A stretch of DNA of 64,000 nucleotides from positions 126,501-190,500 of the forward strand of contig NZ_FNOI01000001.1 of assembly GCF_900107015.1 (NCBI RefSeq), given 5' to 3'. Position 1 is the stretch's first letter, and each line of letters begins with the position of its first letter. Made by a program: the position numbers and the translations under genes. This document shows positions 36,254 through 54,673 of the stretch, in pieces. The DNA comes from Litoreibacter albidus (lineage in GTDB: Bacteria; Pseudomonadota; Alphaproteobacteria; Rhodobacterales; Rhodobacteraceae). The notes beneath the pieces are model-generated. The model saw only the letters and a program-made list of their open reading frames with translations. It did no database searches and was not told the origin of the DNA.

Positions 36254-36257
36254 GATC

Positions 36258-37139: not shown

Positions 37140-37706
37140 TCAGGGCGCCTGTAGCAACAGGTAGCGGCCGTTCCCGCGTCTCACCAAGTCAAAGGCTCTT
37201 TCGTCTTTTTCTGAAGTATAGGCAGGGTTTTCGATTTTAGCGAGCGCGCGGCGCAGGTTTTCCCTGATTTCGTCAGATTTGCCACTATCGAGCGCAAAGG
37301 CGGTTTTGAACACGCGGCTGGCTTCGCCGACGCGACCGGTGTCCATGAGGACAACGCCGAGATTATTCCACGCAGGAACAAAGGTTTGGTCGGTTTTTAT
37401 GGCGCGGCGTAACAGCTGTTCGGATTGCCCAAGACGCCCAAGGCGAAGGTTGACCGAGCCGAGCGCACTCAGCACATCAACGGTGGTTCCTTGCTCCCCT
37501 GCGGCGCGCAGATAGGCCTTTAGGGCGAGTTCAAACTGTCCGGCGGCCATAAGGCGGTGCCCCACGGCGAGACCATCGACGGACTGCAGGCGGGTGACGT
37601 CACCGGTTGGCGGAAACGGGCTGTCGCCCTGCGCAAGGGTGGCGGTCTTCTCCTCGCAGCCTGCGAGGATCAGTCCAACTGCTACTGCGCCCACCCATTT
37701 ATGCAT
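37140..37706 (-). CDS. tadD: TadD-like TPR lipoprotein
   Basis: A 188-residue lipoprotein with lipobox LILAGC (Cys at 17) and three TPR-like units (AAGQFELALKAYLRAAGEQGTTVDVLSALGSVNLRLGRLGQSEQLLRRAIK and following). It sits directly after tadC, the usual place of tadD, so the name is given on position. It is expected in the outer membrane facing the periplasm, assisting secretin biogenesis. Three bases from the tadC stop. Confidence 0.8.
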   Translation of the reverse strand: MHKWVGAVAVGLILAGCEEKTATLAQGDSPFPPTGDVTRLQSVDGLAVGHRLMAAGQFELALKAYLRAAGEQGTTVDVLSALGSVNLRLGRLGQSEQLLRRAIKTDQTFVPAWNNLGVVLMDTGRVGEASRVFKTAFALDSGKSDEIRENLRRALAKIENPAYTSEKDERAFDLVRRGNGRYLLLQAP

Positions 37707-37709
37707 TCG

Positions 37710-38690
37710 TTACCCACCGCCGTTTAGGTTCTTATATATATCGTAGATCGACGGGCCGATCAAAATAATCAACAATGGCGGCAAACAGAACATCATAGTT
37801 CCGAGCGTGAGCTTGGTCGGCAACACGTTTGCCTTCTCTTCCGCCCGCATCACGCGTTTATCGCGCATTTCTGCCGCGTAGACGCGCAACGCGTCTGCGA
37901 TGGATGTACCGAAGCTGGTGGACTGGATCAGCACGGTCACGAAGCTGGACACGTCCGGCACGCCAGCGCGTTCGGCCATGTCACGTAGCACGGTGATCCG
38001 GTCCTTACCGGCCTTCATCTCGTTCGCCACCATCTGGAATTCATCTGCAAGGGCAGGGTAGCCCGCGCGGATTTCGGCGGCCACGCGGATGATCGATTGG
38101 TCCAACGCCTGTCCGGCTTCGACGCAAACAAGCATCAGGTCGAGGCTGTCGGGGAAGCCGGATTCAATTTCTTCCTGACGTTCCTGACGACGGCGCTCAA
38201 TCCAGTACTTCGGCAGGTAATAGCCCGCGCCGCCCGGAACGATGATGGCAATGATCAGGTCGCGGGTGGACATGTCGTCGCCACCAAGGATCAACACGTA
38301 AAGCAGGCCGAGCGTCAGAAAGAGCACACCAAGCGCGAACTGTGCAAAGTGGAAGGTACGCACCGCGGTCTTTTGTTTGTAGCCCGCTTGAAGCAGCTTG
38401 AGCTTCATACCCTGCAGCTCTTCCACGTCTTGCGGCTCTAGGAAGTTGGCGAATTTGTCCAGCTTGTCGGTGCCGTTGGCCGCGCGCAGCGAAGAGTTGT
38501 CACCCTTGGAACGGGCGGACGCACGCTTTGCTTCCTCGCGGATACGGTCCAGCGGGTCTTTCTTCTTTTGGAGCATCGTCGGCAGGGTAACTAGGACCAT
38601 GATGAAGCCCAGCATCCCAACCGCGATCAGGGGGCCGAGTTCGCCGAGGTTTTCCACCAAGATGGCATTGATTGTCTCTACAAATTGCAT
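37710..38690 (-). CDS. tadC: Tad pilus inner-membrane platform protein TadC
   Basis: A 326-residue GspF/PilC-fold membrane protein, with helices near 20-38, 115-150 and 290-320 and a cytoplasmic loop carrying the T2SSF motif (ESGFPDSLDLMLVCVEAGQALDQSIIRV and ERAGVPDVSSFVTVLIQSTSFGTSIADALRVYAAEMRDKR). TadB and TadC together form the base on which pilins are extracted. It is the gene after tadB with four bases between. Confidence 0.94.
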   Translation of the reverse strand: MQFVETINAILVENLGELGPLIAVGMLGFIMVLVTLPTMLQKKKDPLDRIREEAKRASARSKGDNSSLRAANGTDKLDKFANFLEPQDVEELQGMKLKLLQAGYKQKTAVRTFHFAQFALGVLFLTLGLLYVLILGGDDMSTRDLIIAIIVPGGAGYYLPKYWIERRRQERQEEIESGFPDSLDLMLVCVEAGQALDQSIIRVAAEIRAGYPALADEFQMVANEMKAGKDRITVLRDMAERAGVPDVSSFVTVLIQSTSFGTSIADALRVYAAEMRDKRVMRAEEKANVLPTKLTLGTMMFCLPPLLIILIGPSIYDIYKNLNGGG

Positions 38691-38694
38691 CTCA

Positions 38695-39663
38695 TTACAC
38701 CTTGATGTTGACCATGATGCGCATGAAAACCATGTTCACCACAAGGAAGACGCCCACCACGATACATGCGGGAATGAAAAATTCGGTCTCTTTCACTTCT
38801 GCGTAATAGTTCGGCTCCATGATGTTGATGCCGACCAGCGCAAGCAGCGGGAACATCGACAGGAACATGCCGGACCATTTGGCCTCCGCCGTGATCGCCT
38901 TTACGCGGCGGAACAGCTTGAAGCGGGCGCGGATAACTTGTGACAAGCCGTGCAGGATTTCAGCAAGGTTACCGCCTGAGGTTTGCTGAATGGTCACGGC
39001 CACCGCGAGGAAGCGAAGATCCTGCATGTCCATGCGTTCGGCCAAATGTTTCAGGCTTTCGGACACGTCGCGGCCGTAAGCGGATTCGTCCGCAATGACG
39101 CCGAATTCGGTGCCCAGCGGGTCCGCGACTTCCTTGGCGACGATGTTGATCGCGGAGGCAAACGGGTGGCCTACACGCAGGGAGCGCACCATCAGCTCAA
39201 TCGCGTCGGGCAGTTGCTCCTCCATCAAGGCGAGGCGCTTTTTGCACTTGTTGTTCACCCAGACATAAACCGCGCCGATCCCCATCGCGAGGGCGATGAT
39301 GCCGCGCACAGGGGCGGTGGCCTCGGTCATCTGGCTTAGAACCGCGAAAATGACGCCCGCCAGAACGAACATCATGCCAATCAGAGCCGTCGGTGTGAAA
39401 GCGATGTTGGCGCGCAGGGCCTTGTCCGCCAGCATAGAATAGAGCGGGATGCTGCCCGAATTCATATGCTGGTTCATCTCTTTGCGGAGTTGTTCCAGAA
39501 CCTTTTCGCGCGAGCCACCTTTCTGGATCATGTCCAGGCGACGGTTCACCTTGCTGTTCAGGCTGATCGATTTGCCGAAGACAACGAGGTAAATGCCCTC
39601 GATCAACATCAGGACGGCGACAAAGATTATGCCGTACAGAATTGGCTCGAAACTGATTTCCAT
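38695..39663 (-). CDS. tadB: Tad pilus inner-membrane platform protein TadB
   Basis: A 322-residue GspF-fold membrane protein with the T2SSF signature (EQLPDAIELMVRSLRVGHPFASAINIVAKEVADPLGTEF, then LRFLAVAVTIQQTSGGNLAEILHGLSQVIRARFKL). An N-terminal helix, one or two helices near 90-140 and two near 270-315. It works with TadC and the CpaF ATPase. Six bases separate it from cpaF. Confidence 0.94.
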   Translation of the reverse strand: MEISFEPILYGIIFVAVLMLIEGIYLVVFGKSISLNSKVNRRLDMIQKGGSREKVLEQLRKEMNQHMNSGSIPLYSMLADKALRANIAFTPTALIGMMFVLAGVIFAVLSQMTEATAPVRGIIALAMGIGAVYVWVNNKCKKRLALMEEQLPDAIELMVRSLRVGHPFASAINIVAKEVADPLGTEFGVIADESAYGRDVSESLKHLAERMDMQDLRFLAVAVTIQQTSGGNLAEILHGLSQVIRARFKLFRRVKAITAEAKWSGMFLSMFPLLALVGINIMEPNYYAEVKETEFFIPACIVVGVFLVVNMVFMRIMVNIKV

Positions 39664-39669: not shown

Positions 39670-41115
39670 TTACTCCGCTGCGACTGGTTCGTAGATCGAC
39701 GCAGGTAGGTCGTAGCCCCACTGCTTGAACCGGTCGGAATAATGCGAGCGCACGCCTGTTGGGGTGAACTGGCCAATGATCTTCCCGTCGGGCTGCAGGC
39801 CCAGACGCTGGTAGCGGAAGACCTCTTGCATGGAGATAACGTCACCTTCCATGCCGGTAATCTCGGTGATGGACACCATGCGGCGCGAGCCGTCTTGCAG
39901 GCGCGATGCCTGCACGATGAGGTTCACAGCCGACGAAATTTGCGCGCGCACGGCTTTGATGGGCATCTCGATACCCGCCATCGCGATCATGTTTTCCAAG
40001 CGCGACACGCCGTCACGTGCGGAGTTGGCGTGGATCGTAGTCATCGACCCGTCGTGGCCCGTGTTCATGGCTTGCAACATGTCGATAACTTCTTCACCAC
40101 GTGTTTCCCCCACGATGATGCGGTCGGGGCGCATCCGAAGGGCGTTTTTCAGGCAGTCGCGTTGGGATACGGCGCCTTTGCCTTCCACGTTTGCGGGGCG
40201 GCTTTCCATGCGGCCCACGTGGACCTGCTGGAGTTGAAGTTCCGCCGTATCCTCGATCGTCAGGATGCGTTCGGAGTTATCAATGAAGGAGGACAGCGCG
40301 TTCAGTGTTGTCGTTTTACCGGAACCTGTACCGCCGGATACGATGACGTTCAGGCGGCAGGCAACTGCGGCTTGCAGATACGCGGCCATTTCCTCGGAGA
40401 AGGCGCCGAATTTGACCAGATCGTCAATCGCCAGCTTCTCTTTTTTGAATTTACGAATGGACACCAATGAGCCGTCCACCGCGATCGGCGGGACCATGGC
40501 GTTGAAGCGGGAGCCGTCTTTCAAGCGCGCATCGACGTAAGGGTTGGATTCGTCGACGCGGCGACCCACGGCGGACACGATCTTGTCGATGATCCGCAGC
40601 AGGTGCTTTTCATCCTTGAAGCGCGTGTTGGTCAGCGACAGCTTCCCGTCGCGCTCCACAAACACGCGGTTCGGGCCGTTGACCAGAATATCGTTGACGG
40701 TGTCGTCCTTCAAAAGCGGCTCGAGCGGGCCAAGGCCCGTGACTTCGTCGAAGAGTTCCGAATGGAGGGTCTGGCGTTCATCCTTGGTGAGAATGACCGA
40801 CATTTCCTCAAGACCCTCGGCGCAGATGGCGACGATCTCGGACTTCAGGTCCGCTTCCGGCGCGTTTTCAAGCGCTGCAAGGTTCAGGTTGTCGAGCAAG
40901 CGGTGGTGCAACTCGGAGCGGACGTGCTCCAACCGTTGGCGACGCTTGAGGTCTTTATCTTGCGCAATCACATCTGCCGGCGCGATTGGCGCTTTCGCGT
41001 CCGCCCTGCGCATCGACTTTGCGGCCACTGCTTTCGGGGCCGGAGCCGCGACAGCGGCAACCTCTTTCGAGGGTGTCTTGGGGGTAGCATCTGATTTTTT
41101 GTAACGCGAGAACAT
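39670..41115 (-). CDS. cpaF: Tad pilus assembly ATPase CpaF/TadA
   Basis: A 481-residue VirB11/PilT-type secretion ATPase. After a low-complexity Ala/Lys-rich N-terminal 60 residues come Walker A GGTGSGKT at 261-268, the Asp box ILTIEDTAELQL, Walker B and the His box TGHDGSMTTIHANS. Hexameric in the cytoplasm, it drives pilus extension and retraction. Length and order fit CpaF. 15 bases after cpaE on the same strand. Confidence 0.96.
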   Translation of the reverse strand: MFSRYKKSDATPKTPSKEVAAVAAPAPKAVAAKSMRRADAKAPIAPADVIAQDKDLKRRQRLEHVRSELHHRLLDNLNLAALENAPEADLKSEIVAICAEGLEEMSVILTKDERQTLHSELFDEVTGLGPLEPLLKDDTVNDILVNGPNRVFVERDGKLSLTNTRFKDEKHLLRIIDKIVSAVGRRVDESNPYVDARLKDGSRFNAMVPPIAVDGSLVSIRKFKKEKLAIDDLVKFGAFSEEMAAYLQAAVACRLNVIVSGGTGSGKTTTLNALSSFIDNSERILTIEDTAELQLQQVHVGRMESRPANVEGKGAVSQRDCLKNALRMRPDRIIVGETRGEEVIDMLQAMNTGHDGSMTTIHANSARDGVSRLENMIAMAGIEMPIKAVRAQISSAVNLIVQASRLQDGSRRMVSITEITGMEGDVISMQEVFRYQRLGLQPDGKIIGQFTPTGVRSHYSDRFKQWGYDLPASIYEPVAAE

Positions 41116-41130: not shown

Positions 41131-42381
41131 TTATCCCGTGGCTTCCGCCTGATTTGCTTCGTGCAGAGATTGCGCGAGTTTTGCGATCTCCTTGCGCAAT
41201 GGGTTTTTGGCTGCGGTGTCGACCAATGGCAGACCGTGATCGCAGCTCTGGGAGACTTGCTTGCCGCCGTCTGGCATGTGCAATTCGATGGAAATATCGA
41301 GGCTTTCGGCCATCCGTTTGGAGCGGCTTTTGCCCGACAGATCCGTGAACTTTGGTGCACGGTTCAAGACGTAGCGAATTTTCTCGTAAGGAAGCCCTTC
41401 GGATTTCAGCGCGCGGATCATGCGCAGCGTGTTCTGCGCGGAGCGCAGATCAAGCTCCATCATGCCGAAGTAGACGTCCGACATGCCAAGAACGGTTTCC
41501 GTCCATTGAACCAAGGTCGAAGGCATGTCGACGATGACGTAGTCAAAGTTGCGGCGTGCGGTGTTGATCAGCTTTTCGATGTCATCGGGGCTGACCATGT
41601 CCAGTGGGATCATGTCGGCTGGTGCCGTCAAAACCTGAAGCTTGTCGTTGAAGGTTACGAGCGTGGAGCGGAAGGCGTCGTCGTCCATGCTTTCGATATC
41701 GGACAACATTTCCAGCACAGCGTCGCGGCGCGGCAAATCCAGATAGGTGGAGGCGGAACCGAACTGGAAGTCCAGGTCCAGCAAGCACACGCTGACATCG
41801 GCTTTCTTATCGACAGTGGCCAGCTCCCACGCAAGGTTCACCGCGAAGGTAGAGCCGCCACATCCGCCTGCAAGCCCGTGAACCGGAAGCACGACACCAT
41901 CGTTGGTGCCGACTTTGCCGGTCGCTACCGGCGGCAGCTCTGCTGCGACTGGGGCAACTTCTGCGATTTCGGCCTGCTCTTCGATGCGCGCGATGGAGTC
42001 GTGCAGCGCGCCCTCTGGGAGGGGGTAGGGGAGGAAGTCGTTCGCGCCCAACTTCAAGAGCTGGTGCAAGGCGATGGGAGAGACGTCTTCGGCGATCAAG
42101 ATGACCTTGATATCCATATCTTTGGCGCGGCCGATTATTTCGCCAACTAGGGTCAGGTTGTCTTCGTCGGAGCTGTCTACGGCGACGGCGATGAACGAAA
42201 GATCCGAGGCGTCGGGCTGGGACAAGTATGCGTTGGCATCCTCGAAGCTAAGGTCGCCCCACGCCTCACCCAGTTCAGTTTCCATGTCCTCAATCAGAAG
42301 ATCGAAGTTTTGCACGTCGCGGGCGACGGTACAGGCGGAAATCGGCGCCGGTTCAGTTTGTAAAGCTACATTGCTCGTCAT
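41131..42381 (-). CDS. cpaE: Tad pilus localisation ATPase CpaE/TadZ
   Basis: A 416-residue two-domain protein: a receiver-like N-terminal domain without the standard Asp (about 20-130), then a MinD/ParA-type ATPase domain. Its P-loop is degenerate, GLAGGCGGST, lacking the usual Lys, as in other TadZ proteins. CpaE marks the pole for pilus assembly. ATG at 42381 is chosen over one nine codons upstream because the residues before it are not conserved-looking. It is the promoter-proximal gene of the cpaE-cpaF-tadBCD-cpaA unit. Confidence 0.9.
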   Translation of the reverse strand: MTSNVALQTEPAPISACTVARDVQNFDLLIEDMETELGEAWGDLSFEDANAYLSQPDASDLSFIAVAVDSSDEDNLTLVGEIIGRAKDMDIKVILIAEDVSPIALHQLLKLGANDFLPYPLPEGALHDSIARIEEQAEIAEVAPVAAELPPVATGKVGTNDGVVLPVHGLAGGCGGSTFAVNLAWELATVDKKADVSVCLLDLDFQFGSASTYLDLPRRDAVLEMLSDIESMDDDAFRSTLVTFNDKLQVLTAPADMIPLDMVSPDDIEKLINTARRNFDYVIVDMPSTLVQWTETVLGMSDVYFGMMELDLRSAQNTLRMIRALKSEGLPYEKIRYVLNRAPKFTDLSGKSRSKRMAESLDISIELHMPDGGKQVSQSCDHGLPLVDTAAKNPLRKEIAKLAQSLHEANQAEATG

Positions 42382-42428
42382 GCCTAGAATCCCATTTGGC
42401 CAAAACACGGCCGGGTTCGTGTCAGCAA

Positions 42429-42586: not shown

Positions 42587-43225
42587 TTATTGAACTATTC
42601 GTTCCCGTGCGAGAGTTTCGTCGCTCTTTGCGGTCTGAACGTACTCGCGCTGCACAAGAATAGCATATTTGCCGTTCAGAAGCGTCGCTTTGCGTCCGTT
42701 TGAGAAACCACTAACTTCGGTCACTGTGCGCCGGTTGCGGCGTTCAGGGGCCTCGGTCGGAATGACCGGACGGGTCTCGCCAAAGGAGGCCACAGCCTCA
42801 AGCCGCGCGCGGCTGATGCCTTGGCTGGTCAGGAACCGCACGGCCGCTTGTGCGCGGCGCAAGCCCAAGGCTTTGTTCGCTGCATTCGAGCCGACCAAGT
42901 CGGTGTGACCATAGACGCGGAATTTAACTTCTGGGAACTGACGGATCCAATCCGCCTGCTCCATTAGGGCAGCCCGTGCGTTCGCATCCAGTTTGGAGGA
43001 GTTGAACTCGAAGTTGACCTCGGTGTTCACGTCGGCTGCAAAGCGGCGGCCCAGTGTTTCAGCAACGGAGATCGTGCCGTTGGAGATCAGCGTGTTGGTC
43101 ATGGTCGGGTTGCCGAAGCCACCTTCGTCGACACTGGCGCCGATTTCATTGTCGAAACCGGTACAGGCTGTCATGCCAACCGACAGTACGGCGATCAGAG
43201 CGATCGTAGAGGAAGATTTAAGCAT
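42587..43225 (-). CDS. OmpA-family lipoprotein in the CpaD position
   Basis: A 212-residue lipoprotein with lipobox MTAC (Cys at 21) and an OmpA-like peptidoglycan-binding domain (about 60-165): VNFEFNSSKLDANARAALMEQADWI, FRVYGHTDLVGSNAANKALGLRRAQAAVRFL, ending ETRPVIPTEAPERRNRRTVTEV. In many tad loci this place holds CpaD; here an OmpA protein probably anchors the secretin to the wall. Six bases from the secretin gene and clearly co-transcribed. Confidence 0.85.
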   Translation of the reverse strand: MLKSSSTIALIAVLSVGMTACTGFDNEIGASVDEGGFGNPTMTNTLISNGTISVAETLGRRFAADVNTEVNFEFNSSKLDANARAALMEQADWIRQFPEVKFRVYGHTDLVGSNAANKALGLRRAQAAVRFLTSQGISRARLEAVASFGETRPVIPTEAPERRNRRTVTEVSGFSNGRKATLLNGKYAILVQREYVQTAKSDETLARERIVQ

Positions 43226-43231: not shown

Positions 43232-44659
43232 TTACTCCAAAACATAGCCATATGAGCCGGAGAAGTCCTGACGTGCCACTTCACCAGTCGGGGTGCGGCG
43301 TGCGCGAACTTCACGAGCAATCTTACCGTTCAAGAAGAACTCACGTTCGGTAGGAGGGCGGATGCGGTCGGTTGAAAGAACAAGGCTGTTGCCATGCGTT
43401 GGCGTCACAAGGTGCGCGGTCACGATGATGACCAGCTCCGATTGGCGACGCTCGTAGTTGGCAGAGCGGAAAAGCGCGCCCAGCACTGGAATGTCGCCCA
43501 GCCAAGGAACTTGGCCAGCCAGATCGGTGAAGTCATCCTTCAACAAGCCCGCAATTGCGAAGCTTTCGCCGTCGCGCAACTGCACAACCGTGGAGGATGC
43601 GCGTTTAGAGAAGGCGTTGACCGAGAAGCTGTCGTTTACCACGACGACCGACGGGTCAATGCCCGACACCGCGGTGTCCAGCTTGAGGTTGATGATGTCC
43701 TCGTCGAGCACTGTCGGGGTAAAGCTAAGCTCCACACCGAACGGTTTATAGCTGATGCTGACAGAACCGTCTTCAGAGATAGGCACCGGATATTCGCCGC
43801 CCGCAAGGAACGTCGCTTCTTGGCCGGAGAGGGCGGTCAAGTTGGGTTCCGCCAACGTGCGCACAAGGCCTTTGGTCTCTAGGGCTTCCAAAACGACCAT
43901 GGCGCGAAGGCTGCCACTGCCGAAGCCGAAGGAGAAGACGCCGTTCCGCTCGCGGGTTGAGGTCGCGGTACCTGCGCTGCCGTCAGCCGGAAATGCCGTG
44001 GTAGGGTTGCTACCGGCTTGGAGCGTGTTTGTGAAACCATTCGCGCCGAAGGTGCCGCCGGCTGTCTGGAAGCCTAGGCTGGCGGACAGGTCTTTGGAGA
44101 CCGAGCGCGTCATCTCAGCGAAACGGACCTTCAGCATAACTTGCTGTGTTCCGCCAACGCTCATCAGGTTGGATACCGCATCTGGCGCGTAACGCTCCGC
44201 CAGATCAAGGGCGCGGTCGAGTTTGGAGATGCTGGACACAGTCCCGGACAGCACGAGGCCGTCGTTCGCTGTGCGCACTTCGATGTTCTCACCTGGAAGG
44301 ATTTCGCGGAGGCGCTCTTTGAACTCGGAAAGATCCGGCGACACGCGCACGGATACGTTTGTGATCAGGCGACCGTCTGCACCCAGAAGGGTTAGCGTGG
44401 TGCGCCCGGGGGCCTTGCCCAACACATAGATCGTGCGGTCCGACAATGTTGCAATGTCGGCGATGGCAGGGTTGGCCACGGAGAGTTCAGCAAATGGCAC
44501 GTCGCTTTCGACGACCACGGCGCTGTTGATTGAAACGTTAAGTTTGCGGGCCGTCGACTGATTGGTGATCTTCAGGTTCTGCGCGAACCCAGCCTCTGGT
44601 ACAAACGTCGTTAACGCTAGGCCGAACAGGCCTGCGCAGAAAAACTGCTTTAATATCAT
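43232..44659 (-). CDS. cpaC: Tad pilus secretin CpaC/RcpA
   Basis: A 475-residue exported protein: signal peptide (ending VPEAGFAQ), the pilus-assembly N-terminal domain (VVVESDVPFAELSVANPAIADIATLSDRTIYVLGKAPGRTTLTLLG), a BON-like segment, and the secretin core (VMLKVRFAEMTRSV, LTALSGQEATFLAGGEYPVPI, FGVELSFTPTVLDEDIINLKLDTAVS, RASSTVVQLRDGESFAIAGLL). It forms the outer-membrane channel for the pilus. Length is typical. Confidence 0.95.
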   Translation of the reverse strand: MILKQFFCAGLFGLALTTFVPEAGFAQNLKITNQSTARKLNVSINSAVVVESDVPFAELSVANPAIADIATLSDRTIYVLGKAPGRTTLTLLGADGRLITNVSVRVSPDLSEFKERLREILPGENIEVRTANDGLVLSGTVSSISKLDRALDLAERYAPDAVSNLMSVGGTQQVMLKVRFAEMTRSVSKDLSASLGFQTAGGTFGANGFTNTLQAGSNPTTAFPADGSAGTATSTRERNGVFSFGFGSGSLRAMVVLEALETKGLVRTLAEPNLTALSGQEATFLAGGEYPVPISEDGSVSISYKPFGVELSFTPTVLDEDIINLKLDTAVSGIDPSVVVVNDSFSVNAFSKRASSTVVQLRDGESFAIAGLLKDDFTDLAGQVPWLGDIPVLGALFRSANYERRQSELVIIVTAHLVTPTHGNSLVLSTDRIRPPTEREFFLNGKIAREVRARRTPTGEVARQDFSGSYGYVLE

Positions 44660-44871: not shown

Positions 44872-45705
44872 TTAGTTGGTGCAGGCGATCGGCATTTCGA
44901 TCACTTCGGCGCCTTTGCGCGTCTTGATTGTGCAAACCCGTGCGGCCTTTTCTACTACTGCGGCCTCTTCACGGATGCCCAGCAACTGATTTTGGTCAAC
45001 CTCTACGCCTGCAACTTCGGTGTCATCACCAGCGCCAACGAGCGACAGGGACAGGCGGCCAGTCGATTGGGCTTGTGCCAATGCGCCAACTTCACTCGGG
45101 GAGGCGGCAACTGTGACCGTGCGCGCAATCGTTGGTGCGGAGCGGTCGCCGTCAGCAGTTTGGTCAACCGCGATAAGCTTCAAACGGGTGTCGATCAGCT
45201 TGGTCACTTCGCGACCTTGGCTATTGCCGGTCCAGTAAACGTCCACGTGGTCACCTGGACGCAAGAAGCCCGAAACACCGGAGGACACGTCAACTCGCAG
45301 CGCGAAAGCGCGCATACCTTTTGCAAGGCGTGAGGACACGCCAGCATCTTCGCCCGGCTCTGTTACTTTGCTGATCATAACGGCTTCGTCTTTTTCCATA
45401 ACGCGCAGCACCGTGCGCAGCTCGCCGGTCGGCGGGAACAACACTTCACCCTCTTGGAATGCGCCTTCTGGGATGGCGTTGTTCGGCCATGCGATGATTT
45501 GCACGTCTTCTTTCGTCAGCGTTTCGCCGTATGCGATCTGACGCTTGACGGTGAAGACGGCCTCTAGGGGAACGTTGCTTTTCAGCAGTTTCTCCTGAGC
45601 GGCCACCTTGGCCTGATATTGGTCGAATCTGTTTTTTGCCATGAAGGCCGCGAAACCTGCCAAGGCCACGCCCACGATTAGCACTAACCCGAAAACCATC
45701 CGCAT
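44872..45705 (-). CDS. cpaB: Tad pilus assembly protein CpaB/RcpC
   Basis: A 277-residue protein with an N-terminal membrane anchor (MVFGLVLIVGVALAGFAAFMA) and a SAF/CpaB domain (about 50-230) with YGETLTKEDVQIIAWPNNAIPEGAF, GMRAFALRVDVSSGVSGFLRPGDHVDVYWT. It is periplasmic and is proposed to link the secretin with the wall. Ends in a Cys-containing tail (EMPIACTN). First gene after the pilins on this strand. Confidence 0.93.
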   Translation of the reverse strand: MRMVFGLVLIVGVALAGFAAFMAKNRFDQYQAKVAAQEKLLKSNVPLEAVFTVKRQIAYGETLTKEDVQIIAWPNNAIPEGAFQEGEVLFPPTGELRTVLRVMEKDEAVMISKVTEPGEDAGVSSRLAKGMRAFALRVDVSSGVSGFLRPGDHVDVYWTGNSQGREVTKLIDTRLKLIAVDQTADGDRSAPTIARTVTVAASPSEVGALAQAQSTGRLSLSLVGAGDDTEVAGVEVDQNQLLGIREEAAVVEKAARVCTIKTRKGAEVIEMPIACTN

Positions 45706-45836: not shown

Positions 45837-46025
45837 CTAGAACGAGGTGGTGGCCGTCTGATTGCTGAGGTTGCCGTCGACGTCGCCGGTTAAGTCCTGC
45901 GTGCCACCAATGACGACCCCCATCGAGGCCAGCGCTAACCCTATAATTCCGGCCGACAGGATAACCCAGTCGAGTGTAACGGCACCGGTTTCGCTTCCCA
46001 AAAAACGGGACACTAGGTATTTCAT
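45837..46025 (-). CDS. Flp-type pilin-like protein
   Basis: A 62-residue protein with the shape of a Tad prepilin: short basic leader (MKYLVSRFLGSETG), then AVTLDWVILSAGIIGLALASMGVVIGG, a hydrophobic helix right after the cut site Gly. The usual Glu-Tyr of Flp is Asp-Trp. The ATG at 46025 is chosen; the longer frame adds non-pilin sequence. A nine-base inverted repeat (45806-45814 with 45830-45838) overlaps the stop. Diverged from the three pilins further on, so perhaps a minor subunit. Confidence 0.75.
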   Translation of the reverse strand: MKYLVSRFLGSETGAVTLDWVILSAGIIGLALASMGVVIGGTQDLTGDVDGNLSNQTATTSF

Positions 46026-46185: not shown

Positions 46186-46380
46186 TTAGAAGGTAGAGAT
46201 GATGTCTTGCTGCTTAACTTGGTAGTTGTCAGCGTGGTCCAGATCCTCAACGCCTCTGATGACGCCAGCGACAACGAATATGCCCAAGACAAAGATTACG
46301 CCGCCCAACCCAACAATTTCAGGAGAGATGGCGCCGGTTTCGTCGGCGGCGAAGGTCTTGATTTGCATCTTAAAGCTCAT
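46186..46380 (-). CDS. Divergent Flp-pilin-like protein
   Basis: A 64-residue protein opening MSFKMQIKTFAADETGAISPEIVGLGGVIFVLGIFVVAGVI. The FAADETGA part before the hydrophobic helix matches the leader of the neighbouring pilins, but the residues after the cut site are AISPEI rather than AVTVDW; Glu is retained at position 5 of the mature form. The C-terminal half is different and acidic (VEDLDHADNYQ). Probably a minor pilin or pilin-related protein. Confidence 0.65.
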   Translation of the reverse strand: MSFKMQIKTFAADETGAISPEIVGLGGVIFVLGIFVVAGVIRGVEDLDHADNYQVKQQDIISTF

Positions 46381-46594: not shown

Positions 46595-46789
46595 TTAGAA
46601 TGTGGTTGTCACACCCTGTGTTGTCAGCTGTGTTTCGATGTCGCCGGACAGTTTTTCCAGACCGTCGGATACGGATGCCATAACGGCGATGCCCAGGCCA
46701 ACGATGGCAGCGGTCAGAACAACCCAGTCAACAGTTACAGCGCCGGATTCGTCTGCTGCGAAATTTTTGATCATTGCGTTCAGTGTCAT
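46595..46789 (-). CDS. Flp-type major pilin-like protein, copy 1
   Basis: A 64-residue prepilin (MTLNAMIKNFAADESG, then AVTVDWVVLTAAIVGLGIAVMASVSDGLEKLSGDIETQL). The cut is expected after ESG by CpaA. Glu5-Tyr6 of standard Flp is Asp-Trp. It shares about 90 percent of residues with copies 2 and 3 and differs in IVG/LVG and the tail (VTTTF instead of VSAAF). Own ribosome site GGAGGGATATACT, own upstream box (46929-46950) and own terminator: a monocistronic, probably strongly expressed unit. Confidence 0.85.
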   Translation of the reverse strand: MTLNAMIKNFAADESGAVTVDWVVLTAAIVGLGIAVMASVSDGLEKLSGDIETQLTTQGVTTTF

Positions 46790-47049: not shown

Positions 47050-47244
47050 TTAGAATGCTGCGGATACGCCTTGCGTAGTCAGCTGTGTTTCGATGTCGCC
47101 GGACAGTTTTTCCAAACCGTCGGAAACAGAAGCCATAACAGCGATGCCCAGGCCAACGAGAGCTGCGGTCAGAACAACCCAGTCAACAGTTACTGCGCCG
47201 GATTCGTCTGCTGCGAAAGATTTGATCATTGTGTTCAGTGTCAT
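47050..47244 (-). CDS. Flp-type major pilin-like protein, copy 2
   Basis: A 64-residue prepilin whose product is identical to that of copy 3 (47508-47702). Leader MTLNTMIKSFAADESG, mature start AVTVDW, helix VVLTAALVGLGIAVMASV, tail TTQGVSAAF. The ribosome site GGAGGGATATACT and the upstream box are shared. Its product is the likely main pilus subunit. ATG at 47244 is the start; a longer reading includes the ribosome site. Confidence 0.88.
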   Translation of the reverse strand: MTLNTMIKSFAADESGAVTVDWVVLTAALVGLGIAVMASVSDGLEKLSGDIETQLTTQGVSAAF

Positions 47245-47507: not shown

Positions 47508-47702
47508 TTAGAATGCTGCAGATACGCCTTGCGTAGTCAGCTGTGTTTCGATGTCGCCGGACAGCTTTTCCAAACCGTCGGAAACAGAAGCCATAACAGC
47601 GATGCCCAGGCCAACGAGAGCTGCGGTCAGAACAACCCAGTCAACAGTTACTGCGCCGGATTCGTCTGCTGCGAAAGATTTGATCATTGTGTTCAGTGTC
47701 AT
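47508..47702 (-). CDS. Flp-type major pilin-like protein, copy 3
   Basis: A 64-residue prepilin identical in protein sequence to copy 2; the two coding regions differ by two silent bases near the 3' end. Same leader, cut site and ribosome site. Its upstream box has lost the TTAA half, so its expression may differ from the other copies. Two copies of one pilin may raise dosage, or the duplication may simply be recent. Confidence 0.88.
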   Translation of the reverse strand: MTLNTMIKSFAADESGAVTVDWVVLTAALVGLGIAVMASVSDGLEKLSGDIETQLTTQGVSAAF

Positions 47703-47860: not shown

Positions 47861-48072
47861 CACCCTTACATAAATGCGCTGAAATTCGTTCATCATGTTG
47901 ATTTGAAAGAAGTTTAATGTGATTTCGGGCAAAACACGCCCCCGCGCTGTCCCATAACCTGCGTCAATGCTGGCACAGGGTTTCGATTGTTGCGCAGATC
48001 AGGTGGTGTCAACGCCCTTTTTCTGCGATGGTCTGGAAAAAGAAAAATACCAACGGCAAGTCGGGCAGGCTC

Positions 48073-48885
48073 ATGTCGATTAAAATTCGCGAGATTATTC
48101 TGCTACTGTGTTTATGCGTAGCGGGCTCAGGTAACGCTGCAGAGCTGAAACCTGCATTTGGGGGTAACTTTACCTTCAAGAAAATTGCGCCGCCCAGTAA
48201 GGGCGCGAAAAAGCTGATCACCATCCAGATACAACCAAAGCCCAAGACGCCCAAAGTCGCGGCGACCCCGAAAGGGGCGGCACCTAAGGCACCGTCGAAA
48301 GTGGATTGGTTCTGGCAAGCCGTGTCGCCATCGATAGAGGCTTCCGGCCCCGGGCGCTTCACGCACGCTGTGGCGAGCCTTGGAACGGCCCCCAAGGGGA
48401 GTGCGGTCGCCGCGCCGCGGTTGGAGACAATGCAGGCCATCGCAAGCCAGCACGGGACGACGATTTTGCTGGAGACGTTGAACAAGAAGATATCGCCCGC
48501 ATTCGTTCTCGCGCTGATTTCGGTGGAATCAGGTGGACGTGTCGCTGTTGAAAGTAACAAAGGCGCTCAAGGCCTGATGCAGCTGATCCCCGACACCGCG
48601 GCGCGTTTTGGCGTGACCGACAGCACCGACCCCGTCCAGAACATCAAGGGCGGCGTGGCGTATCTTGAGTGGTTGATGACGGAATTCGCTGGCGACCCGA
48701 TCCTTGCGTTGGCGGGTTACAACGCTGGCGAGAATGCCGTGAAGAAACACAAAGGCGTTCCGCCGTATCCTGAGACGCGAAATTATGTGCCAAAAGTTCT
48801 GGCGGCCTGGAAAGTGGCCAGAGGCATGTGCCTGTCGCCGCCAGAACTGGTCTCCGACGGCTGCGTATTTCGGACAAAAGGCTAG
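48073..48885 (+). CDS. Lytic transglycosylase (SLT domain), exported
   Basis: A 270-residue protein with a signal peptide (MSIKIREIILLLCLCVAGSGNA) when started at 48073; ATG 48028 would add 15 charged residues in front. A Lys/Pro/Ala-rich linker (about 30-90) precedes a lysozyme-like SLT domain: ALISVESGGRVAVESNKGAQGLMQLIPDTAARFGV with the catalytic Glu in VESGG, then LALAGYNAGENAVKKHKGVPPYPETRNYV. It cleaves peptidoglycan, likely to open a path for the tad pilus next door. It is on the opposite strand to the pilins. Confidence 0.9.
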   Translation: MSIKIREIILLLCLCVAGSGNAAELKPAFGGNFTFKKIAPPSKGAKKLITIQIQPKPKTPKVAATPKGAAPKAPSKVDWFWQAVSPSIEASGPGRFTHAVASLGTAPKGSAVAAPRLETMQAIASQHGTTILLETLNKKISPAFVLALISVESGGRVAVESNKGAQGLMQLIPDTAARFGVTDSTDPVQNIKGGVAYLEWLMTEFAGDPILALAGYNAGENAVKKHKGVPPYPETRNYVPKVLAAWKVARGMCLSPPELVSDGCVFRTKG

Positions 48886-48888: not shown

Positions 48889-50322
48889 ATGACACGCAAA
48901 CCACTGATTTTGGATGTCGACGGGACGCTCTTGCGCACCGATATGTTGTTCGAGACCTTTTGGTCCGCAATGGGGCGTGCGCCCATCGATACCTTGCGCG
49001 TGGCGGCAGGCAACCTGTCGGACCGCGCGCGGTTGAAGGCCGAGTTGGCGGCGCTCGCGGATTGCCGTGTCGATCTGATGCCCGTTGATGAAAACGTGCG
49101 CGACATGGCGCAGCAAGCAGCGGAGCAGGGGCACGAGGTGATACTCGCCTCTGCCTCGGACGAAAGCTTGGTCACTGCATTGGCAGCGCACCATGGGCTA
49201 TCCGGCCGCGTCTTTGCCTCGGATGGCGTGAATAACCTCAAAGGTGAGGCAAAGGCGGACGCGTTGGTGGAAGCTTTTGGCGAACGCGGTTTTCATTACG
49301 CGGGCAACGACGCATCCGACGTTGCGGTTTGGACGAAGGCCGACGACGTTATCATGGTTGGCGACCAGCCTGCGGCACGCGCGGCTTTGGAGGATGAGGG
49401 GCACGCGGTCACGCAATTGCCCGGCGGCTGGTCTTGGGCCAGCCTGATCAAAGCCATGCGCCCGCACCAATACGTGAAAAACGTGCTACTTTTGTTGCCC
49501 ATCATCGCGGCGCATAATTTCGGGCTTTCGGCCTTTCTACCCGTGCTGTTGGCGATTGTGTCCTTCTCGGCGGCGGCTTCGTGCATCTATCTGGTCAATG
49601 ATTTGCTTGATATAGACGCCGACCGACTTCACCCAACGAAGCGCAAGCGCCCGTTTGCCAGCGGGGCATTGCCGGTGAAGACGGGAATGTTTGCGGTGCT
49701 CGGCCTTGCGGCTGTGGCGTTGGGTGTTGCGGCGCTGTTGAACGCGGCCTTCTTGGGCGTTGTTGTGCTCTATATGATCTTGTCGCTGGCATATTCACTC
49801 AAGCTAAAGCGTATGCGCTGGGTCGATATCGCGACGTTGGCGGCGCTGTATACGATACGAGTCGTGGCGGGGGCGGCGGCGGCGCAGGTCTATGTGACAG
49901 GCTACATGCTGGTCTTTATCTTCCCCGTTTTTGTCACACTGGGCTGCGTTAAGCGGCTGACGGAATTGACGCTGGCCACGTCCGACGACCGTTTGCCCGG
50001 ACGTGGCTACGGCCGCCCGGACAGGTCGGACCTGCTGAACGTTGCAGGGTTGGGCATGTTTGGCGCATTGATGGTGTTCTTTTTGTATACGTTTACGGAG
50101 CAAGCCCGCTCGCTCTATCCCACGCAATGGCTGCTGTGGGTGGCGATGTTGCCCATCGGTGGGTGGCTGTTTCGTATGGTGTCGCTTGGGTATAAGGGCA
50201 AACAGGATTACGATCCGATTGTTTTTGCGATGCGCGACCGTCACGGAATATCGCTGATCCTGTTTGCTTTAACCTTGATGTTCTATGCGGCAGGTTTGTT
50301 CCAAAACGCCTTTGGCTTCTAA
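48889..50322 (+). CDS. HAD phosphatase-UbiA prenyltransferase fusion (DPPR synthase-like)
   Basis: A 477-residue fusion. Residues 1-185 form a HAD phosphatase with all four motifs: DVDGT (Asp9, Asp11), ASAS near 87-90, Lys118, and GNDASD with Asp141. Residues 188-477 form a UbiA-type membrane prenyltransferase with about eight helices; NDLLDIDAD at 237-245 is the first metal-diphosphate motif and the following RLHPTKRKRP matches decaprenyl-phosphate phosphoribosyltransferase (mycobacterial Rv3806c) better than ubiquinone UbiA. The expected product is polyprenyl-phosphoryl-5-phosphoribose, and the HAD domain would remove the 5-phosphate (inference). The gene converges on dprE2/dprE1-like genes, which would epimerise the ribose to arabinose. 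Start three bases after the transglycosylase gene. Confidence 0.85.
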   Translation: MTRKPLILDVDGTLLRTDMLFETFWSAMGRAPIDTLRVAAGNLSDRARLKAELAALADCRVDLMPVDENVRDMAQQAAEQGHEVILASASDESLVTALAAHHGLSGRVFASDGVNNLKGEAKADALVEAFGERGFHYAGNDASDVAVWTKADDVIMVGDQPAARAALEDEGHAVTQLPGGWSWASLIKAMRPHQYVKNVLLLLPIIAAHNFGLSAFLPVLLAIVSFSAAASCIYLVNDLLDIDADRLHPTKRKRPFASGALPVKTGMFAVLGLAAVALGVAALLNAAFLGVVVLYMILSLAYSLKLKRMRWVDIATLAALYTIRVVAGAAAAQVYVTGYMLVFIFPVFVTLGCVKRLTELTLATSDDRLPGRGYGRPDRSDLLNVAGLGMFGALMVFFLYTFTEQARSLYPTQWLLWVAMLPIGGWLFRMVSLGYKGKQDYDPIVFAMRDRHGISLILFALTLMFYAAGLFQNAFGF

Positions 50323-51056
50323 ACGCTGAGTTTTTTGAACAGTCGTTCAGGGATCGCCTTGATGATCCCCATGATCAGGCGCCAGAACCCCGGCGTGTAG
50401 ATCACGTCTTTGCGCTTCTCCACGGCTTTCAGGATATCGGCGGCGATTTTGTCCGGCGTGGCGACGAGAAACATCCCCTCGATCCCCCACGTCATGGCGG
50501 TGTCCACGAAACCTGGTTTTACGGTGACGACATGCCCGCCACTGCGGGTGAGCCTGTTGCGCAGACCGCTCAGGTAGGTGTGAAAGCCTGCTTTGGCCGA
50601 CCCATATACATAGTTGCCAATGCGCCCGCGGTCCCCCGCGACGGAGCCCACACCAGCAACAGTCCCGCCGCCGCGTTCTTCCATGTGGGGCGCGATCATT
50701 TGCAAGAAGGCGGCTGGCCCAGCGTAATTGTCGGTCACGGTGCCCGCGATCAGGGACGGATCTGCGTCGATCTGGTCTTGCGTCGGCATGGAGCCCACGA
50801 ACACGGCGACGTTGATCATCCCCTCCAGCGCTGTGGCGCTCTCTATAATCGGGGCGAAAGTGTTGGCGTCGCGGGCGTCAAAGCGAGCGGCTTGAGAAAA
50901 GGGAGCGCCTTGCAGGCGGCAGTCCGCCGCGCTGGCGTCCAGATCTTTCGCGTCGCGTCCTGCGAGGATGACATTCGCGCAGTCTCGCGCAACTGCACGA
51001 GCGAAGGCGCGCGCCATAGAGGACGTGGCCCCGAGGATGATCCAAGTTTCGGTCAT
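50319..51056 (-). CDS. dprE2: DprE2-like SDR (decaprenyl-phosphoryl-2-keto-ribose reductase)
   Basis: A 245-residue short-chain dehydrogenase. GATSSMARA is the nucleotide loop, Ser138 in GSVAGDRGR and Tyr151/Lys155 in YVYGSAK are catalytic. The C-terminal tail IYTPGFWRLIMGIIKAIP closely follows the pattern of mycobacterial DprE2, including a hydrophobic end that may touch the membrane. It would reduce the 2-keto intermediate made by DprE1 to polyprenyl-phosphoryl-arabinose with NAD(P)H. It overlaps dprE1 by four bases (ATGA) and the 3' end of the UbiA fusion by four. Confidence 0.85.
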   Translation of the reverse strand: MTETWIILGATSSMARAFARAVARDCANVILAGRDAKDLDASAADCRLQGAPFSQAARFDARDANTFAPIIESATALEGMINVAVFVGSMPTQDQIDADPSLIAGTVTDNYAGPAAFLQMIAPHMEERGGGTVAGVGSVAGDRGRIGNYVYGSAKAGFHTYLSGLRNRLTRSGGHVVTVKPGFVDTAMTWGIEGMFLVATPDKIAADILKAVEKRKDVIYTPGFWRLIMGIIKAIPERLFKKLSV

Positions 51057-52366
51057 GCGTGACTCCGGATGTTCAAGCGGCGGGTTTGGTCTGTTTCATA
51101 GGCCCCGTTAGGGTCTATTTCGGTGATGAGCTTGGCGAACTTTGCGACGTCTGGATACATGGAGCGTACATGCGCGGGCGACAACGTCGCGTCCTTGGCT
51201 AGATAAATACGCCCGCCTGCGTTCTTGGCGATTTCTTCAAGCTCCGCGATGAGGGCTTCTGCGGCCCCGCGATTGGGGAAGTCGACGGCGAGGGTATAGC
51301 CTTCCATGGGGAAGGACATCAGGCCTGCACGGCCCGGCCCCATGCGTTTAATCACCGCGAGCGGGGAGGCGAGGCCTTCGCGCCCGATCTTGTCTAGCAT
51401 CACGCGCAGAACTGTGGCCTCCGTAATCGGAACGACGCATTGGAACTGGTGGAAGCCGCGTTTCCCGTACAGGCGGTTCCATTCCAGAAGTTTGTCCAGC
51501 GGAAAGAAGAATTCGGTGATGGGCTTCACACTGGTGCGGCCATCTTCCGGCACGCGCCGGAAATAGGATGCGTTGAACAGTCGGACCACCGGATTGGAGA
51601 GCGCCCATTTGGGCGCGTTGAACGGCACCGACTTGGCGCGCTTGGCGTCGGGGACGAGGCCGTAGCCGGTTTCGGCTTCTTCCAGAATGCCGCGCCCGAG
51701 GGTTTCACCCTTCGCGGTCGCGTCGACCCAACCGACGGTATACGTGGATTGAGAGTTGTCCAAGGCTTCGAGGAAGTGATCTAGGTTTTCGATCCGCCGT
51801 TCCGTCACGGTGATCACGTCGCCTTTGCACGGCAGCAGTTTGATCTTTGCGGAGACGATCGCGCCCGTTTGTCCCATACCACCGACGGTGGCACGGAACA
51901 GTTTAGCGCCTTTGGACGGTCCGACCTTTTGGAGTTTGCCGCCATTCATCAAAGTGATTTCCGTGACATGCTGGCCGAAGGATCCCGCGCCATGGTGGTT
52001 CTTACCGTGCACATCATGGGCAATGCAGCCGCCGATGGTTGCGAAGCCGGTTCCCGGCATCACGGCGGGAAGCCACCCATCAGGCGCGAAGCGCCGTGCG
52101 ATATCACCGATGCGTGCGCCTGCTTCCACCTCCAGAATGCCAGTCTCTGGGTCGAAATCCAACAGCCGATCCATGCGGGTCATATCCAGAGCGTGGCCGC
52201 CGTCGTTCAAACAGGAGTCGCCATAAGACCGGCGCATGCCAAAGGCTGGTGCGCTTTGTTCGCTTTGGGCAGCGGCAAGCGTGGAGGTCCGCTCTGGGCG
52301 GGCGACTTTGGCGGTGGCGCTGTGGACGCGGCCCCAGCCTGTGTAGGTAAGAGTGTTCCAGATCAT
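51053..52366 (-). CDS. dprE1: DprE1-like FAD oxidase (decaprenyl-phosphoryl-ribose oxidase)
   Basis: A 437-residue FAD-linked oxidoreductase of the vanillyl-alcohol-oxidase fold. RRSYGDSCLNDGG (46-57), VMPGTGFATIGGCIAHDVHGKNHHGAG (102-128) and the YLAKDAT segment with Lys391 follow Mycobacterium DprE1 closely; Lys391 corresponds to the catalytic Lys418. It would oxidise the 2'-OH of polyprenyl-phosphoryl-ribose. The residue that is Cys387 in M. tuberculosis, the covalent target of benzothiazinones, is Ala360 here. Coupled by four-base overlaps to dprE2 and to the upstream membrane protein gene. Confidence 0.9.
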   Translation of the reverse strand: MIWNTLTYTGWGRVHSATAKVARPERTSTLAAAQSEQSAPAFGMRRSYGDSCLNDGGHALDMTRMDRLLDFDPETGILEVEAGARIGDIARRFAPDGWLPAVMPGTGFATIGGCIAHDVHGKNHHGAGSFGQHVTEITLMNGGKLQKVGPSKGAKLFRATVGGMGQTGAIVSAKIKLLPCKGDVITVTERRIENLDHFLEALDNSQSTYTVGWVDATAKGETLGRGILEEAETGYGLVPDAKRAKSVPFNAPKWALSNPVVRLFNASYFRRVPEDGRTSVKPITEFFFPLDKLLEWNRLYGKRGFHQFQCVVPITEATVLRVMLDKIGREGLASPLAVIKRMGPGRAGLMSFPMEGYTLAVDFPNRGAAEALIAELEEIAKNAGGRIYLAKDATLSPAHVRSMYPDVAKFAKLITEIDPNGAYETDQTRRLNIRSHA

Positions 52367-53370
52367 ATCATTTTCGACTTATTTGAGAATGCTTCGGCAA
52401 AAGGAAAGGTCAGCGCACCGAGGGCTATCGCGAACCAAAGTGTAGTGATGCGGATAACCGTGGTGGCCGCGACGGCCACATGAAGGGGCACACCGCTCAT
52501 GGAGAGCAAGAAAACCATTGAGGCTTCTGCGCCACCCAAGCCGCCCGGCGCGCCGGTCAAACCGCCCGCCAATGTGGAGAACAAGAAGATGGTTGTCGCC
52601 GCTGCAATTCCGATATCCGCACCCATCCATTTCAAGAGGAGATAGAGCGCGAACCCTTCGGCCAGCCACCCCACTGCGCTGAGGATCAGCGCGGGAATGG
52701 AGGTGCCGGCCTGACTGAACAAGCCCATGGAACGCGCCGATTGGCGCAGGGTGGCAAATAGGCGGGGCCAACGGTTGACGAGGCTAAAGAGCGCTTCCAC
52801 AATTCTTTTGAGCAACATGGGGCGGGTCACGATAACTGCGGTGACAATTGCCGCGGCGGCCACGGGGGCCGCACGAAGCCCGCCTTGGCCTGAGATCAGA
52901 ACGCCGCCACCCAAGACCAACCCCATCGCAGCCATGTCAAAAGCGCGGTCCGCAAGGGGGAGGGGTGTTAGCCGTTCCAGCGTCCATCCGGTCATCCGCC
53001 TGATCCACCGAAGGCGGACAAGTTCTCCGACTCGCGCGGGGGTGATGGTCATGGCGAAGCCACCAATAAAGTGCAGTAAAGAGGTGTGCAGCGACAGGTT
53101 CACGCCAAGCCTTGCTGCGAGAAAGTGCCAACGAACGCCGCGCAGGACATAGTTGATCAGCGATAGAGCGAGCAACGCGCCAAACTGGGTGACCGTCAGC
53201 TTTTGCAATTCTTGCCACGTCTCGCGCCAGCCAGTGGCAGTGACAAGCCCGATAAGTCCGACGACAAACAAAACCAGCAGGCCCCAAAATAGAACCCGAT
53301 CACGCCACGAGCGTTTCGAGGCCGCCAAAACATGCGGCGGGGGCGTTGGGATGCTGTCAGTCAAACTCAT
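52363..53370 (-). CDS. UPF0104/lysylphosphatidylglycerol synthase-type membrane protein
   Basis: A 335-residue polytopic protein with about seven to eight helices. Features of the LPG_synthase_TM (YbhN/AglD-like) family are NYVLRGVRWHFLAARLG, FIGGFAMTITPARVGELVRLRWI and GGLTGAPGGLGGAEASMVFLLS. The family contains the flippase part of MprF and proteins linked to polyprenyl lipids and cell-wall sugars, but catalytic function is not shown. It is the first gene of the operon with dprE1 and dprE2, so a role in moving or using the polyprenyl-linked sugar is plausible (inference). Confidence 0.8.
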   Translation of the reverse strand: MSLTDSIPTPPPHVLAASKRSWRDRVLFWGLLVLFVVGLIGLVTATGWRETWQELQKLTVTQFGALLALSLINYVLRGVRWHFLAARLGVNLSLHTSLLHFIGGFAMTITPARVGELVRLRWIRRMTGWTLERLTPLPLADRAFDMAAMGLVLGGGVLISGQGGLRAAPVAAAAIVTAVIVTRPMLLKRIVEALFSLVNRWPRLFATLRQSARSMGLFSQAGTSIPALILSAVGWLAEGFALYLLLKWMGADIGIAAATTIFLFSTLAGGLTGAPGGLGGAEASMVFLLSMSGVPLHVAVAATTVIRITTLWFAIALGALTFPFAEAFSNKSKMI

Positions 53371-54037: not shown

Positions 54038-54068
54038 GCCCGCACTCTGGCCCGAGTGAGGCGTAGCT

Positions 54069-54479: not shown

Positions 54480-54673
54480 GTCGATCTTACCTTTGTTCTG
54501 AATGCGCACATTACGCGACAGTGGCGGTGAGCGCAGGGTGACAGGATGTCTCGGGGGCGGGCGTCTCGATTTATTTTCCCCGCGCCGCGACGGAGTTCCT
54601 GCCGTGGTTCGTTAAAGGTGCATAACGGCGACCAAGACCGGTTCCCGAATGACCAAAACTGGAGACCACACAC

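Follow-up and report, generated by a model that had tools for sequence, protein, structure and literature searches.

What does a polyprenyl-phosphoryl-arabinose pathway of the mycobacterial type do in an alphaproteobacterium, and to what is its sugar attached? The question is raised by a stretch of 64,000 nucleotides from Litoreibacter albidus (contig NZ_FNOI01000001.1, positions 126,501 to 190,500; here "the window," with coordinates counted from its first letter), in which genes for the predicted donor pathway lie at one end of a tight adherence (tad) pilus locus and a gene for a membrane glycosyltransferase of the GT-C type lies at the other. The original prediction had recognized the pathway and called the acceptor enzyme not obvious, naming lipopolysaccharide (LPS), capsule, pilin, or a Nod-factor-like product as the glycan served. 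As the GT-C gene is linked to tad and tends to be found in the genomes that have the pathway, pilin is favored over LPS, capsule, and a Nod-factor-like product, and we propose, with a probability of roughly 0.6, that the Tad pilin is the arabinofuranose acceptor, modified by periplasmic O-arabinofuranosylation near the C terminus of Flp. Genomes (G) and loci (L) are cited by our own handles.

The predicted donor operon

The donor genes in the window are as follows.
48889..50322, plus strand: fusion of a haloacid dehalogenase (HAD) phosphatase (PRP; PF12710) with a UbiA domain; PDB match 8j8j
50319..51056, minus strand: DprE2-like short-chain dehydrogenase/reductase (SDR), predicted 2-keto reductase step; PDB match 21gq_C
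51053..52366, minus strand: DprE1-like flavin adenine dinucleotide (FAD) oxidase, predicted 2'-oxidation step; PDB match 4aut
52363..53370, minus strand: flippase-like LPG_synthase_TM protein, predicted to flip the donor; PF03706 (1.7e-46), TIGR00374

The UbiA, DprE2-like, and DprE1-like open reading frames (ORFs) of the original prediction, with their coordinates, convergence, four-base overlaps, and RLHPTKRKRP motif, were confirmed; the N-terminal HAD domain of the UbiA protein (PF12710, residues 7 to 144) and the fourth gene had escaped it. The motif lies in the UbiA part of the fusion, the 3' end of whose gene overlaps that of the convergent DprE2-like gene at 50319 to 50322, and overlaps of four bases each join the DprE2-like to the DprE1-like gene (51053 to 51056) and the latter to the LPG_synthase_TM gene (52363 to 52366).

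In PDB sequence searches, the top match of the fusion was decaprenylphosphoryl-5-phosphoribose (DPPR) synthase 8j8j (E = 3.4e-28), that of the DprE1-like protein was 4aut (E = 5.9e-71, residues 7 to 433, near full length), and that of the DprE2-like protein was 21gq_C (E = 9.2e-24, ranked first of 203). Among NCBIfam models, the fusion passed the cut-off of PRK08238 (506.5 versus 351 bits) and missed that of NF008978, decaprenyl-phosphate phosphoribosyltransferase (153.1 versus 207 bits). The DprE1-like protein missed the cut-off of the DprE1 equivalog NF053785 (384.4 versus 500 bits), which was nevertheless its best model by far, and the DprE2-like protein missed that of the DprE2 equivalog NF053786 (168.4 versus 250 bits), scoring higher with PRK07102 (263.7 against that model's cut-off of 267). 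The assignment of the three proteins to these families therefore stands as homology, with mycobacterial proteins as the best PDB matches, and fails at the level of curated equivalogs: they are homologues that do not reach the curated cut-offs set for the mycobacterial proteins.

We surveyed 149 genomes of the order Rhodobacterales, an even sample of a larger group. Matches to the fusion at E up to 1e-3 were present in 78 of them: 26 genomes carry a synthase of clade a (54 to 100% identity), 36 carry one of clade b only (35 to 44%), and 16 carry weak matches only, leaving 71 with none; a second, clade-b-like match was present in four of the clade-a genomes. A clade-a DprE1 (54 to 100% identity) was found in 28 genomes. 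The three genes do not, as had been entertained at the outset, always co-occur across the order, given that neither synthase clade is clearly present in 87 of the 149 genomes. Class-wide, the UbiA protein had matches at E up to 1e-30 in 37 of 385 genomes.

In 25 fetched clade-a loci (L031 to L055), the UbiA gene is always adjacent to a lytic transglycosylase (SLT) gene. DprE2 and DprE1 are adjacent in 23 of these loci (in G106 and G146 they are on other contigs), and DprE1 adjoins LPG_synthase_TM in 22 of the 23 with DprE1 (the exception is G087); UbiA and DprE2 are at most 600 bases apart in 19 of 23 and at most 4 kb apart in the other four. As this operon arrangement recurs across genera, it is not a product of chance.

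Homologues from the same loci were aligned by tblastn. In the DprE1-like protein, H120, K122, Q307, Q309, K340, K391, and W213, which we take to lie around FAD and substrate, are kept in 23/23 sequences, as are S138, Y151, and K155 of the DprE2-like protein, presumably the Ser/Tyr/Lys set typical of SDRs. In the HAD domain, where the choice of catalytic residues is partly our assumption, D9 and D11 are kept in 22/22 aligned sequences, S88 is kept in 23/23, and K122 and D144 are kept in 22/23, the remaining sequence having a gap. The NDxxDxxxD and KRxxE loops of the synthase, with residues as named in PMC11127046, are intact throughout (N237, D238, D241, D245, R356, and E359 in 25/25).

We predict that the fusion acts as both a polyprenyl-phosphoryl-ribose-5-phosphate synthase and a 5'-phosphatase; oxidation by the DprE1-like protein and then reduction by the DprE2-like protein at C2 would yield polyprenyl-phosphoryl-D-arabinofuranose, to judge from homology and the conserved catalytic residues. 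That the lipid donor instead carries ribofuranose or some other pentose, with the DprE1 and DprE2 homologues performing a different redox step, seems to us quite improbable. The scores of both proteins under the NCBIfam cut-offs would fit such a donor, as would F287, T358, and A360 of the DprE1-like protein, positions that we take to be near the active site and that differ from mycobacterial DprE1 in 23/23 aligned homologues, but the mycobacterial enzymes are the best matches of both proteins over nearly their full length and the residues listed above for both enzymes are invariant. The reading as a polyprenyl-phosphoryl-arabinose pathway is well supported, about as sure as sequence and conserved catalytic residues allow.

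For export of the donor, three clade-b loci tested encode a GtrA-type protein between UbiA and DprE1; clade-a loci have no gene in that place and carry LPG_synthase_TM at the operon end, suggesting that the latter fills the flippase role. From its place and family, this protein, or another flippase, would carry the donor to the periplasmic face.

A GT-C protein at the tad locus

The predicted transferase is encoded at the other end of the tad locus.
34158..35777, plus strand: GT-C glycosyltransferase, predicted to transfer a pentofuranosyl residue to pilin (from its AlphaFold fold and co-occurrence)

The AlphaFold model of this protein, previously noted as GT-C-like, has a predicted local distance difference test score (pLDDT) of 89.7, and structure comparison shows the GT-C fold, with AftA as the best match. 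The start codon of the gene is uncertain, the frame being open from 33582. Neither Pfam nor NCBIfam has a family for the protein or its longer ORF version; among 27 members of its alignment there was one GT87 match (E = 0.0039) and one PMT_2 match (E = 0.0098), and a PDB sequence search with its profile gave a single match, at chance level. Acidic residues in the first loop past helix 1 are conserved (D47 in 27/27, E45 in 26/27), and this loop probably faces the periplasm.

Between the GT-C gene and the donor operon lie the following genes.
35774..36358, minus strand: tad prepilin peptidase (TadV/CpaA-like; PF01478)
36258..37103, minus strand: TPR (TadD-like) gene
37140..37706, minus strand: TPR (TadD-like) gene
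37710..38690 and 38695..39663, minus strand: TadC and TadB, respectively (PF00482, PF19360 for the pair)
39670..41115, minus strand: TadA/CpaF ATPase (PF00437)
41131..42408, minus strand: CpaE-like AAA protein (PF13614)
42587..43225, minus strand: OmpA-domain protein of the tad locus (PF00691)
43232..44659, minus strand: RcpA/CpaC secretin (PF00263, PF13629)
44872..45705, minus strand: RcpC/CpaB (PF16976)
45837..46025, minus strand: Flp-type pilin, C terminus ...TATTSF
46186..46380, minus strand: Flp-type pilin (divergent), C terminus ...IISTF
46595..46789, minus strand: Flp-type pilin, C terminus ...VTTTF
47050..47244 (47259 by wider ORF limits), minus strand: Flp-type pilin, C terminus ...VSAAF
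47508..47702 (47717 by wider ORF limits), minus strand: Flp-type pilin, protein identical to the preceding one
48028..48885, plus strand: lytic transglycosylase (SLT; PF01464), with the pilin genes on one side and UbiA on the other

The window thus contains a tad pilus locus to which a putative glycosylation module has been added, one part at each end. The GT-C and prepilin peptidase genes converge, with ends overlapping by four bases. Five Flp-type pilin genes stand in a row, and the identical pilin protein and similar flanking ORFs of two of them suggest a recent tandem duplication.

In many Rhodobacterales, the tad locus has donor genes next to one of its ends and the GT-C gene next to the other, by the prepilin peptidase. 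In the 149 genomes, TadA had a match in 144 (139 of them with E below 1e-180) and the GT-C protein in 31 (29 with E below 1e-50). Of the 26 clade-a genomes, 20 have UbiA at most 12 kb from TadA; in G011, G045, G051, and G083 a contig end near UbiA hides the arrangement, in G072 the tad locus is split and UbiA lies beside RcpC and the pilins, and in G087 the distance is 141 kb. For the GT-C gene, the distance to TadA is at most 12 kb in 25 of 28 genomes (G055, with no TadA match, is left out) and 24 kb in G045 and G049; in G011 the gene is on a separate contig. It remains by tad even where the donor genes are distant, as in G014 and G100 (clade b) and G087 (clade a).

The GT-C gene is present in 25 of the 26 genomes with a clade-a synthase (all except G122) and in 27 of the 28 with a clade-a DprE1; it occurs without the former in G014, G052, G055, and G100 and without the latter in G014 and G100. 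Fisher tests, which ignore relatedness, give p = 4e-23 for co-occurrence with the synthase and 3e-26 for that with DprE1.

A second sample was obtained by scanning genome contigs with the GT-C alignment and taking the best 80 of 343 relatives; a few of its loci belong to genomes of the 149-genome set (e.g., L133, L155, L168, and L195). All 80 come from Rhodobacteraceae genera or, by title, wider groups, the closest being Litoreibacter at 72 to 76% and less. The prepilin peptidase adjoins the GT-C gene in 69 of these 80 loci, and 70 have at least one tad gene nearby; among the 10 loci without one, L135 and L150 have a contig end at most 200 bases away and L191 and L200 have one at most 1.4 kb away. 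Class-wide, the GT-C profile matched in 3 of 385 genomes, namely, the window's own and two weak cases, in a scan that scored at most three candidates per genome and may have missed others.

The SLT gene is found at tad loci both with and without the module: six tad loci without GT-C (L115 to L120, two of them in Litoreibacter) keep the core and SLT and have neither flank. Marivivens donghaensis (L102, L133, and L227) lacks the tad core, SLT, and UbiA and has a DprE2 match that ends at residue 162, and it retains the GT-C gene, the peptidase, one TPR gene, DprE1, and the membrane protein.

A pilin C-terminal motif that tracks the GT-C gene

Flp-type ORFs between RcpC and SLT were compared in a discovery set, where the pilins of genomes with GT-C tended to end in (S/T)-(F/Y). 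The C-terminal pattern [ST]x{0,2}[FY]x{0,2}-end was fixed after this set and then applied to 40 further regions. G058, which has a distant GT-C relative only, was counted as lacking GT-C, and 2 of the 20 hold-out regions with GT-C ended at a contig edge and yielded no pilin. The motif was present in 23/31 discovery genomes with GT-C versus 4/27 without and in 16/18 versus 5/20 hold-out genomes; counted by pilin, the values were 54/84 versus 5/62 (discovery) and 34/45 versus 5/48 (hold-out). In a control that leaves the aromatic residue aside, distinct pilins from genomes with GT-C also have more Ser/Thr in their last four residues (means of 1.37 versus 0.98 in the discovery set and 1.71 versus 0.74 in the hold-out set). 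When 96 genomes are placed on a tree of RcpC, presence of GT-C switches 11 times, and of 11 edge-disjoint pairs, 8 speak for the link between motif and GT-C, 0 speak against it, and 3 are ties (p = 0.008).

An alternative is that the substrate of the GT-C protein is a polysaccharide or lipid of the cell surface (LPS, capsule, or an adhesive glycan) that acts together with Tad pili in attachment, its linkage to tad reflecting shared regulation rather than a pilin acceptor. The nearest biochemical precedent indeed modifies O antigen (PMC11127046), and distant GT-C relatives lie close to a clade-b synthase, away from tad, in three loci (L112:8204-9817, L113:10859-12601, and L114:8336-9940) that had been chosen for their GT-C matches; members of the broader family may therefore act on different acceptors. 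Fifteen clade-b loci (L056 to L070) likewise have no tad gene, and no GT-C homologue was found in them at E up to 10. Against this alternative stand the position of the GT-C gene beside the prepilin peptidase in most of the best 80 loci and the pilin motif that tracks its presence, and we regard it as rather unlikely. A Nod-factor-like or LPS-only product is disfavored, as clade-a genes lie by tad in most genomes and the clade-b loci examined do not.

Proposed mechanism and evidence against it

In the mechanism that we favor, with the Tad pilin as acceptor, the GT-C protein (34158 to 35777) would move arabinofuranose from the exported donor onto Ser/Thr near the Flp C terminus, before or during pilus assembly, a step suggested by its fold, linkage, co-occurrence, and the pilin motif. 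We further give an even chance to a more specific proposal, namely, that this is a new GT-C family dedicated to the Tad pili of Rhodobacteraceae, placing D-arabinofuranose on Ser/Thr beside the C-terminal Phe/Tyr of Flp, gained and lost together with a matching pilin C terminus, and perhaps hiding the pilus from Tad-binding phages or tuning surface attachment.

Several observations weigh against pilin as the acceptor or against the strength of its support. The match of the GT-C model to AftA speaks for the fold only, O-mannosyltransferases and ArnT lying within 1 Z of it. The motif was derived from the discovery set itself, and Litoreibacter supplies 5 of the 18 hold-out genomes with GT-C. The motif is missing from 8/31 (discovery) and 2/18 (hold-out) genomes with GT-C and present in 4/27 and 5/20 without it, among them G059 (Litoreibacter), whose pilin ends in ITSTF; scored by pilin fraction, the pair test weakens to 8 to 1 (p = 0.039). 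G122 has donor genes at tad and no GT-C, and G052 has GT-C and DprE genes and no synthase. The main evidence against strict dependence is the set of GT-C genomes without the synthase: of 50 genomes searched among the best 80 of 343 relatives, 36 have clade a, 7 have clade b only, and 7 have no clear synthase. Five of the last seven keep a clade-a DprE1; the other two, G152 (L. arenae) and G175 (Aliiroseovarius marinus), gave no DprE1 match at E up to 1e-20 either.

A search for a replacement synthase with NF008978 gave only weak UbiA relatives in G052, G152, G160, and G175 and nothing in G155, G156, G192, and G193; G192 and G193 are metagenome-assembled genomes, so absence there is weak evidence. 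Neighboring ORFs at L216 to L219, examined by eye, included no candidate. In L216, L217, and L101, UbiA is absent between SLT and DprE2, and DprE2-DprE1-LPG_synthase_TM and GT-C are retained. Litoreibacter halocynthiae and L. ascidiaceicola, two of the genomes with clade b only, retain remnants of the clade-a UbiA gene at their tad sites (L220:8216-8650, L221:13471) and carry the clade-b synthase elsewhere.

Such losses raise the possibility that in this lineage the module is decaying, with GT-C and DprE genes kept without a working donor pathway: Litoreibacter genomes G150 and G151 hold only UbiA remnants at the tad site, G155 and G156 hold none, neither synthase nor DprE1 was found in L. arenae, and UbiA is also absent in G052, G055/G160, and G193. 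We consider this very improbable: in the window, all four donor genes are open and catalytic residues are conserved; both genomes with UbiA remnants, moreover, carry a clade-b synthase elsewhere.

Other features of the window

NUDIX and DUF983 genes (53447 to 54509) come after the donor operon, and look-alike ORFs, judged by eye, are also present in L216 and L217. A Hint_2-domain protein is encoded at 5936 to 6991 (PF13403, 6.5e-55); in L036, L037, and L050, too, relatives of 34 to 37% identity lie near the module.

Comparison with known systems

The surprise that the original prediction attached to such a pathway in a Gram-negative bacterium is lessened by its being known or proposed in several (PMC11127046, PMC12369383). 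ORF15 of Citrobacter, a HAD-UbiA fusion, has been shown to make prenyl-phosphoryl ribose, and DprE1/E2 homologues are reported in candidate systems of organisms with arabinofuranose glycans (PMC11127046); type IVa pilins of Pseudomonas paraeruginosa are arabinosylated (PMC12369383), as are Nod factors by rhizobia (PMC5080398). With these precedents, a donor pathway in a Gram-negative bacterium is not new.

The mycobacterial pathway (Rv3806c, Rv3807c, DprE1, and DprE2) shares three homologous enzymes with the window and supplies their top PDB sequence matches; it differs in that no arabinan wall is expected here, the phosphatase is a fused HAD domain, and the scores fall under the curated cut-offs. 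The Citrobacter youngae O1/O2 system (ORF15/ORF14/ORF12, GT136) resembles the window in having a HAD-UbiA fusion in which the same residues are conserved, a lipid-linked pentofuranose, and a periplasmic GT-C protein (PMC11127046). There, however, a MATE-family protein takes part and the O antigen receives ribose or xylose, whereas the window has DprE1/DprE2, LPG_synthase_TM, and a tad locus. The parallel with Azorhizobium noeCHOP, drawn in the original prediction, is in print (PMC5080398, PMC2443382): noeCHOP and the noeCNHOP of Rhizobium IRBG74 likewise provide an alphaproteobacterium with arabinose donor genes and a transferase dedicated to them (PMC5080398), but the acceptor is a Nod factor and noeN is a separate proposed phosphatase.

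Glycosylation of Flp as such is already in print, earlier work having implicated RcpC in it (PMC12307814). What would be new is the setting, with arabinosylation moved to Tad pili and to a GT-C family without a Pfam name. Among the titles and abstract openings listed, in a search whose coverage excludes most subscription journals, there was no report of arabinosylated Flp or Tad pilins or of donor genes at tad loci. A paper on tad genes in Rhodobacterales (PMC8383342) never mentions glycosyl, UbiA, arabino, operon, or prenyltransferase, and passages of PMC10412643 and PMC12826051 had no relevance to the question.

If our reading is true, the arabinofuranose of Rhodobacteraceae would have a defined acceptor and a defined set of enzymes, pilin arabinosylation would no longer be confined to type IVa pili but would include Tad pili, and a GT-C family for which Pfam has no model would be delimited. 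As Tad pili of Caulobacter are phage receptors (PMC11067988) and pilin arabinosylation gives P. paraeruginosa resistance to certain phages (PMC12369383), a role in phage resistance in Rhodobacteraceae would then be testable. One of the closest known systems is that of P. paraeruginosa itself (TfpW, PSPA7_6245-6251), which has D-arabinofuranose donor genes and a GT-C gene encoded with the pilin, two sets that can lie apart (PMC12369383, PMC11841053); TfpW is a GT-C protein according to a title cited in PMC11841053. The window differs in its Tad pilus, its GT-C protein without a Pfam family, and its fused synthase-phosphatase. Linkage of GT-C to pilus genes, a mark of pilin arabinosylation systems, was observed both in the second sample (69/80 loci) and in the order-wide survey (25/28 genomes within 12 kb of TadA).

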